64,000 nucleotides of DNA from Desulfobacterales bacterium (GTDB lineage: Bacteria; Desulfobacterota; Desulfobacteria; Desulfobacterales; JARGFK01): the NCBI GenBank assembly GCA_029211065.1, contig JARGFK010000004.1, positions 1-64,000 of the forward strand, in the 5' to 3' direction. The stretch's first letter is position 1, and every line of letters starts with the position of its first letter. This document shows, piece by piece, positions 49,038 to 50,873 of this stretch. A program made the translations under genes and the position numbers. A model generated the notes under the pieces. The model was not told the origin of the DNA. It did no database searches and saw nothing but the letters and a program-made list of their open reading frames with translations.

Positions 49038-49376
49038 AATTATTTGAGGGGTCGGGGAGTTTTTCAAACGTTGTCCTGTCAGCCCGGAGACAGCCCCCGT
49101 GGGATGCATAACCATCTTATTGAGGCATGACCGCACGGCAGCGATCCCGCTCAAGTTCCATTGAACCAGCCCCAAAAGGTTGATTCCCACGGCGACGATG
49201 ATCGTCTCTGCCTGTTACCGCTCAGCGCAAAGGCTGGGGGGCGTGTACGGAGCACAGTCACCTTTGGTTACGGCTCCCACGGGGGCTTTCTCCGGGCTGA
49301 CCGTCGACAAACGCTGAAGTGACAAGGGCTTTCCCCATAGGCGCTTGTAACGAAACTCCCCGACCCCTGAATTATT
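49038..49376. repeat. Composite inverted-repeat element (about 340 bp) between gpmI and proA
   Basis: Outer arms: AGGGGTCGGGGAGTTT (49047-49062) is perfectly inverted as 49353-49368, with AT-rich flanks that also partly match. Inner arms: 49078-49104 and 49275-49301 are inverted over 27 bp with a single mismatch and contain CAGCCCGGAGA and GCCCCCGTGGGA. The right arm has about 37 extra bases between outer and inner repeats. No credible ORF was found inside. It resembles a non-autonomous transposable element, but the long nested stem could also be a structured RNA. The rest of the 49004-49574 spacer holds the proA promoter. Confidence 0.75.
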
Positions 49377-49481
49377 TAGACGTCGGCCCGATCTGAAATA
49401 CGGTTATCGCCGGCGTGTTCATTATGTCTATTTCATTCTGATTTCCTTAGTAAATCAGGAAAAAGAAAGTGCGAATAGAAT

Positions 49482-49574: not shown

Positions 49575-50873
49575 ATGGATATCAAACAACTAGCGAAAAA
49601 AGCCAAAGCGGCATCCCTTCAGCTTGCCGCAGTCGGCAGTGAAACAAAAAACACGGCCCTTGAAAATATAGCGCGCGCGCTGGAACAAAACAAAGCAGAC
49701 ATTGCTTCGGCCAACGCAGCCGATTTAAATAAAGCGGAAAAGGAAAACCTGGCTGCGCCGCTGCTCAAACGCCTCAACTTTGATGAAGGTAAAATACATG
49801 AAGCTGTGGAGGGTCTCAACAGCCTGATCGGCCTTGCCGATCCGGTGGGCCTTACGCTAAGCGCCATGGAGTTGGACAAGGGCCTGGAGCTTTTCAAGGT
49901 GAGCTGCCCCATCGGGGTGATGGGTATCGTCTTTGAATCCCGGCCGGATGCTTTGGTGCAGATATCATCGCTGTGCCTTAAAAGCGGCAATGCCGTCCTG
50001 ATGAAAGGCGGCAGCGAAGCCGCCGGCACCAATCGAATTCTGGCGGACATCATCAACAAAGCAACCACGGCGGCCGGCATTCCGGCCGGCTGGCTGACCC
50101 TGCTGGAAGCCCGGTCGGATGTCACCGAGATGCTGGCAATGGATGCGCATATCGACCTGATCATTCCCCGGGGCAGCAACGAGTTCGTCCGACATATCAT
50201 GGATAACACCAACATACCCGTTCTGGGTCATGCCGACGGGATCTGTCACGTGTATATCGACAAGACGGCGGATATCGACATGGCGGTAAGGATAACGGTT
50301 GACAGCAAGACCCAGTATGTGGCCGTGTGCAATGCAGCGGAAACCCTGCTGGTGCATAAAGATATTGCCGGGAACATCCTGCCGAAGCTCAAAGCGGCCC
50401 TCACAAAAAAAGGGGTTGAACTGCGGGGGTGTGAACGGACCGCCCGATTGATTGATGTCCTGCCCGCCACCGAAAAAGACTGGTGCACCGAATATCTGGA
50501 TTTTATCCTCTCCATCCGGGTTGTGGATTCCCTGGCGGATGCCGTTGATCATATCAATCGTTACGGCTCTCGCCACACCGACGTGATTGTAACCGCCGAC
50601 AAGGTGAGAGGGGGGCGGTTCATGGATTACGTGGATTCAGCCTGTGTATTTATGAACTGCAGCAGCCGCTTCAACGACGGCTTTCGATTCGGATTGGGCG
50701 CCGAAGTGGGTATCAGCACCAACAAAATTCATGCACGCGGCCCCGTGGGCTTGGAAGGACTGGTGATATACAAGTGGCGTCTGATCGGCAACGGCAATGT
50801 GGTAACGGACTATTCCGGAAAGGATGCCAGGGCCTTTACGCACCGGCCGCTTAAAATGGATTTCAAGCTTTGA
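49575..50873 (+). CDS. proA: Gamma-glutamyl phosphate reductase
   Basis: A 432-residue ProA, reducing gamma-glutamyl phosphate to the semialdehyde with NADPH in proline synthesis. Key parts are GVMGIVFESRPDALVQI, LIIPRGSNEFVRHI, the region VAVCNAAETLLVHK with the likely active Cys, and FRFGLGAEVGIST. It is separated from proB and has its own promoter. AAAGGA precedes ATG 49575. Confidence 0.96.
   Translation: MDIKQLAKKAKAASLQLAAVGSETKNTALENIARALEQNKADIASANAADLNKAEKENLAAPLLKRLNFDEGKIHEAVEGLNSLIGLADPVGLTLSAMELDKGLELFKVSCPIGVMGIVFESRPDALVQISSLCLKSGNAVLMKGGSEAAGTNRILADIINKATTAAGIPAGWLTLLEARSDVTEMLAMDAHIDLIIPRGSNEFVRHIMDNTNIPVLGHADGICHVYIDKTADIDMAVRITVDSKTQYVAVCNAAETLLVHKDIAGNILPKLKAALTKKGVELRGCERTARLIDVLPATEKDWCTEYLDFILSIRVVDSLADAVDHINRYGSRHTDVIVTADKVRGGRFMDYVDSACVFMNCSSRFNDGFRFGLGAEVGISTNKIHARGPVGLEGLVIYKWRLIGNGNVVTDYSGKDARAFTHRPLKMDFKL

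Follow-up and report, generated by a model that had tools for sequence, protein, structure and literature searches.

A probable MITE copy between gpmI and proA of a Desulfobacterales bacterium, with inner hairpin arms that covary from copy to copy

Results and discussion

The locus between gpmI and proA

Within the window, the stretch of 64,000 nucleotides that was analysed here, a short element lies in the gene order obg, proB, nadD, rsfS, gpmI, element, proA. Pfam supported the assignment of proB and gpmI and the aldehyde-dehydrogenase fold of proA, while obg, nadD and rsfS are named provisionally, in line with the conserved order in relatives. The element proper comprises 324 bp (49046–49369) and is framed by perfect 8-bp direct repeats AATTATTT at 49038–49045 and 49370–49377; we annotated these as target-site duplications, since the two 8-mers are identical and other copies carry 8-mers of their own. 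By convention, the + strand of this copy is the strand of its core. The left terminal inverted repeat AGGGGTCGGGGAGTTT (49047–49062, +), which is common to copies in several genomes, is perfectly complementary to the right one (49353–49368, −) over 16 bp. Further inside, a left arm (49078–49114, +) and a right arm (49265–49301, +) of 37 nt each are 89% complementary around a spacer of 150 nt, with a single mismatch in their first 27 nt. The spacer holds a conserved core (49135–49252, +), an 80% match to a core query of 119 bases that we delimited by eye. Between the right inner arm and the right terminal repeat lies a long asymmetric outer segment (49302–49352, +), and the alternation of a long and a short outer side recurs in other copies. 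A previous sequence-only reading had described a nested hairpin over 49038–49376 with outer arms of 16 bp, inner arms of 27 bp with one mismatch, and unpaired bases that fall into this long segment. Both pairs of arms were confirmed and the hairpin is real, except that the outermost AATTATTT is a direct repeat and lies outside of it.

RNA folding of 49038–49376 gave energies far below those of 100 dinucleotide shuffles on both strands (z = –10.3 and –9.1). Two ORFs within the element (53 and 65 aa) had no Pfam match, which bears out the earlier remark that no ORF fits. Rfam returned no match at the gathering score in the whole window, and only sub-threshold hits with E values up to 5 around the element. 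The stop codon of gpmI is located 42 bp ahead of the element, a position that would suit a gpmI terminator, or else a chance or purely local inverted repeat. The element contained no terminator-like site, however, and the same structure is dispersed in many places, as described below, so that these copies already refute a local origin and leave it a next to negligible probability.

It had also been proposed that the element separates proA from the operon of proB. Among the 29 loci compared from relatives, 21 have proB next to a 41–47% identical proA. The proA of the window (49575–50873) is divergent: it shares 66–71% identity with four relatives' loci and about 44% with the rest, and belongs to a ProA group other than the one adjoining proB. 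Among these four closest loci, one has proA before proB and three lack proB within the flank covered; the carrier genome G016, introduced below, had no match to the proA of the window. Judged from gene order and sequence comparison, proA has evidently been moved or replaced, because most of the relatives' loci keep proB and proA adjacent and the proA of the window is of another group. The element is not what separates the two genes, and the proposed split does not hold, as nadD, rsfS and gpmI already stand between proB and the relocated proA. A promoter scan at proA found weak consensus sites only.

Copies in the same genome and in relatives

A search for further copies, as suggested by the sequence-only reading, was successful in the same genome, in G016 and in other relatives. 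In the source genome (G000, 269 contigs), blastn detected 20 matching stretches. Interpreted by reading, these contain five full copies (contigs C4, C35, C167, C16 and C55), one copy that is split over the first bases of contigs C16 and C113, which share the 8-mer AACTAAAC, a deletion derivative without the centre on C67 (L010) and a truncated copy on C39. Complete and incomplete ones taken together, the genome thus has no fewer than seven copies besides that of the window. Flanking 8-mers, compared by eye, agreed fully in C4, C167, C16/C113 and C67 and at seven of eight positions in C55 and the second C16 copy, while C35 had none.

Among 58 genomes searched, the source genome included, three matched, namely the source genome itself, G016 and G008, the last with a short end match only. 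G016 yielded 82 pattern matches, compared with none in the control. Only 9 of the 291 genomes searched from the order matched the 119-base core query, so the family is patchy. When one genome per species was searched for an exact 20-base end pattern, 12 stretches were recovered, all of them in records that bear the names Deltaproteobacteria, Desulfobacteraceae or Olavius-associated symbionts; the named carriers of the family are Deltaproteobacteria and Desulfobacteraceae MAGs. Shorter elements with the same end repeat were present as well, with lengths judged from hit spacing of about 121–124 bp in G187, 154 bp in G117 and 275 bp in G211. A plasmid collection searched with the element gave no match. 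A scan of viral contigs for the end repeat produced one hit, apparently within coding sequence, that we judged to be due to chance.

For quantitative comparisons we collected 100 core matches, of which 94 had arms of at least 30 bp; 49 of these had both ends within five mismatches. The six matches omitted from the arm counts were L052, which has no true core, and L090, L097, L155, L164 and L168, which have no 30-bp arm. The divergent copy C16b (L004) of the source genome escaped the core pattern and is outside this set, and the copies from G080 and from MAG CSMAG_1936, whose contigs have equal lengths, appear to come from one genome and are not independent.

Evidence for transposition

The flanks of the 49 two-ended copies were informative. 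Their 8-mers agreed at seven or eight of eight positions in 19 copies, while shuffled partners gave a mean of 2.4 such copies and a maximum of 8 in 2000 shuffles. When the left flank was moved by 1 to 3 bases, 0 to 4 copies with this level of agreement remained. Targets preferentially had A at positions 1 and 5 and T at positions 4 and 8. In 23 of the 49 copies four or fewer bases matched, a finding that counts against the explanation we favour. None of the 44 copies with sufficient flank was situated inside an ORF of 150 aa or more. Terminal inverted repeats, a target duplication of fixed length (8 bp), a size of 324 bp without a transposase gene and dispersed copies are the features by which MITEs are recognised, and the proposal that the element is a non-autonomous transposon is thus supported by its copies, ends, duplications, intergenic location and lack of coding capacity. 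A transposase would presumably have cut and joined the AGGGGTCGGGGAGTTT ends and duplicated an 8-bp AT-rich target, as the direct repeats show; in the window, the element would have landed between gpmI and proA. As a separate observation, copy L064 is flanked by inverted rather than direct 9-mers (CAAATAGTT on the left, AACTATTTG on the right), which could mean that the element as a whole, or one of its flanks, has been inverted.

An autonomous partner with the same ends was not found in the draft assemblies by a search that covered few transposase families and was not exhaustive. PF01609 gave 14 matches in four of five genomes, none of which had the end repeat within three mismatches in its locus. 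CAGGG ends combined with 8-bp duplications were taken as a lead to an ISAs1-derived element. This candidate was rejected, as the ISAs1-type transposase PF13808 was absent from all 10 carrier genomes, while the control set was positive in 3 of 14. Likewise, inspection by eye of the starts of the longest ORFs in 20 stretches beside apparently lone end repeats revealed a transposase in none; some of these stretches proved to hold the partner end or a decayed element.

Matching and covariation of the inner arms

Within copies, the inner arms were almost perfectly matched, with 162 mismatches in 4116 positions (94 copies). In the 49 two-ended copies, the two arms of a copy were 96.2% identical, compared with 73.5% for arms of different copies. 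Copies that are nearest neighbours by core differed by 8.9% in the core and by 14.1% in the arm, compared with 3.8% between the arms of one copy. The covariation check that had been proposed for the stems was carried out with an alignment (A2) of 28 sequences without an inserted base, spread over genomes and taken from 72 listed; it excludes variants with symmetric insertions as well as the copy of the window. A previous alignment of 36 sequences (A1) was not used to count pairs, as one inserted base puts it out of register. In A2, 97.6% of 1225 cells paired (shuffled mean 80.5%), and 33 of 44 arm pairs had changed on both sides (shuffled mean 18.9). Cells with two-sided changes numbered 204, a value that none of 500 shuffles reached (mean 54.6), and one-sided changes were few. 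Pairing fell to 35–46% when the partner was slid by one to three columns. The inner arms thus covary strongly. In the 49 two-ended copies, the terminal repeats behaved differently, with 18.2% mismatches per site versus 4.6% in the arms.

Such strong covariation, together with the folding on both strands, is what a structured non-coding RNA gene family would exhibit if its long stem were kept by selection on RNA base pairing, and an RNA had been offered as an alternative by the earlier reading. The conserved core, in which a small hairpin is exchanged for another hairpin in some copies, would also be in agreement with an RNA. Selection on RNA, however, is expected to tolerate G–U more than A–C. 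Arm mismatches that would be G–U in an RNA of the core strand (38) were no more frequent than those that would be G–U only in the opposite strand (47; p = 0.39). Transversions made up 77 of the 162 arm mismatches, and the ratio of transitions to transversions in the arms (85/77) equalled that of the core (684/548 in 79 nearest-neighbour core pairs; p = 0.50). Since transcripts from either strand would enrich transitions and no enrichment was observed, the palindrome is apparently maintained as DNA, and this also applies to copies whose target duplications are not recognisable. The scarcity of one-sided changes next to 204 two-sided cells, the presence of target duplications and inverted cores, and the absence of an Rfam match also speak against an RNA family. 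Moreover, RNAalifold on 77 cores revealed almost no common structure, namely one 5-pair helix of –7 kcal/mol; with 28 sequences it proposed short core helices, mostly invariant or with variation on one side only. Of the RNA proposal, the stem covariation stands, but a G–U-tolerant signature is missing on either strand, and we consider an RNA family very unlikely. Even when 33 of 44 pairs covary, covariation by itself is no proof of an RNA; G–U must also be weighed against A–C intermediates, and transitions against transversions.

Proposed template switching between the arms

Core orientation relative to the long outer side provided a second indication of how the arms are kept. Both orientations were present among the 49 two-ended copies (30 versus 19), and C55 represents an inverted-core case in the source genome. 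According to published work, template switching between inverted repeats makes their arms alike and flips spacers (PMC8604942), and it yields multibase compensatory changes in RNA genes (PMC8794818). Homogenisation by template switching, combined with spacer inversion, is the best explanation of the arm and core pattern. In the proposed course of events, inverted arms of about 44 bp, which enclose the conserved core of about 120 bp, would pair within one strand during replication, and the polymerase would switch template between them. One arm would be copied onto the other, so that mutations reach both arms and the core is sometimes inverted. We infer replication as the cause of both arm matching and core inversion. 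The outer inverted repeats do not show the homogenisation seen in the inner arms, which counts against this explanation unless the mechanism, as we assume, is governed by the length of the arms or their spacing.

Alternatively, it might be selection, not neutral switching, that maintains the inner palindrome, with a DNA hairpin or cruciform serving, for instance, as a binding site for the transposase or for a protein of the host. In the comparison of G000 with G016, core and arms were indeed conserved above the outer segments, and L121 and L122, whose arm sequences are unrelated, still have the stem and both kept the core; L122 has no recognisable GGGGTCGGGG end. Yet a pure requirement for mobility predicts poorer arm matching where target duplications are gone, and matching was no lower there: of 42 positions, 1.4 were mismatched in 23 copies with a poor duplication versus 2.3 in 19 copies with a good one (p = 0.07). 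Inverted spacers, furthermore, are a by-product of template switching according to PMC8604942. We regard selection for a DNA hairpin as unlikely. We consider it probable that the feature represents a single member of a MITE family from Desulfobacterota-like bacteria in which template switching keeps the arms matched. In a deletion derivative, L073 (also seen in G117), the core is gone and the inner stem is near-perfect.

Relation to known elements

The kind of element is well known. Bacterial MITEs such as Chunjie of Geobacter uraniireducens and QMITE1 and QMITE2 of Coxiella burnetii are, according to a review (PMC10969869), shorter than 500 bp, have terminal inverted repeats and flanking direct repeats, are intergenic and noncoding, occur in many copies of varied size and form strong stem-loops if transcribed, and the element resembles them in these respects. 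In contrast to these descriptions, the present family bears a nested second inverted repeat that is homogenised per copy and a core in either orientation. With template-switched inverted repeats, as described in PMC8604942 and PMC8794818, it shares arms that match each other while changing over time, and spacer inversions. The cases reported there are inverted repeats of yeast genes and stems of RNA genes, whereas here about 80 dispersed places in one genome are concerned. No description of this MITE family emerged from literature searches on the end sequence and on elements of this type, within the listings and sections of text that they covered. A homogenised, flipping inner hairpin with a conserved core is an unusual variant. 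In this family, nature has recorded how palindromes are repaired and flipped when DNA is copied: with some 80 copies of a single palindrome, one carrier genome offers a replicated natural measurement that could gauge how often bacterial replication copies arm onto arm and flips a spacer.

The core and alternative ends

Between G000 and G016, identity amounted to 69.9% in the core, 49.1% and 54.5% in the outer segments and 83.0% in the terminal repeat. This conservation makes a function of the core likely, and it may, as a guess, be a binding site. A coding core was rejected, as the indels in the alignment are not multiples of three and no Pfam match was obtained. In many G016 copies (e.g., L085, L098, L110 and L154), a small perfect hairpin, either GGTCCGCCTNAGGCGGAC or GGTCTGCCTGAGGCAGAC, takes the place of the core segment GGCAGCTATCTCGCTG.

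Among the 45 copies without both standard ends, 30 had other, asymmetric ends: the same arm-plus-core module is flanked by a TTTTCATGCCCGACTGGGCACAACGAAGCATGAAA hairpin at one end and by GATTGAAAAACGACTGTTTGTTTCTAATGAATAT at the opposite end, and the two core orientations numbered 16 and 14. Of these, 29 belong to G016 (L060, L065, L067, L070, L110 and others) and one, L116, to G147. The hairpin of arms and core might be a module of its own, with a conserved DNA core, that is passed between unrelated end types, the near-perfect palindrome with its arbitrary arm sequence being kept for a protein of the cell or of the transposon that has to read the hairpin; the end types would be the GGGGTCGGGGAGTTT ends, the asymmetric ends of the 30 copies, and L122 with its lack of a recognisable end. 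Such a module appears quite unlikely to us. Finally, at the left of L133 and L138, one element end is replaced by another palindrome that is common to both copies, GTGGTTGTAG...CGATAACGGAACGTTTT...ACAACCACTA, perhaps a second mobile palindrome.
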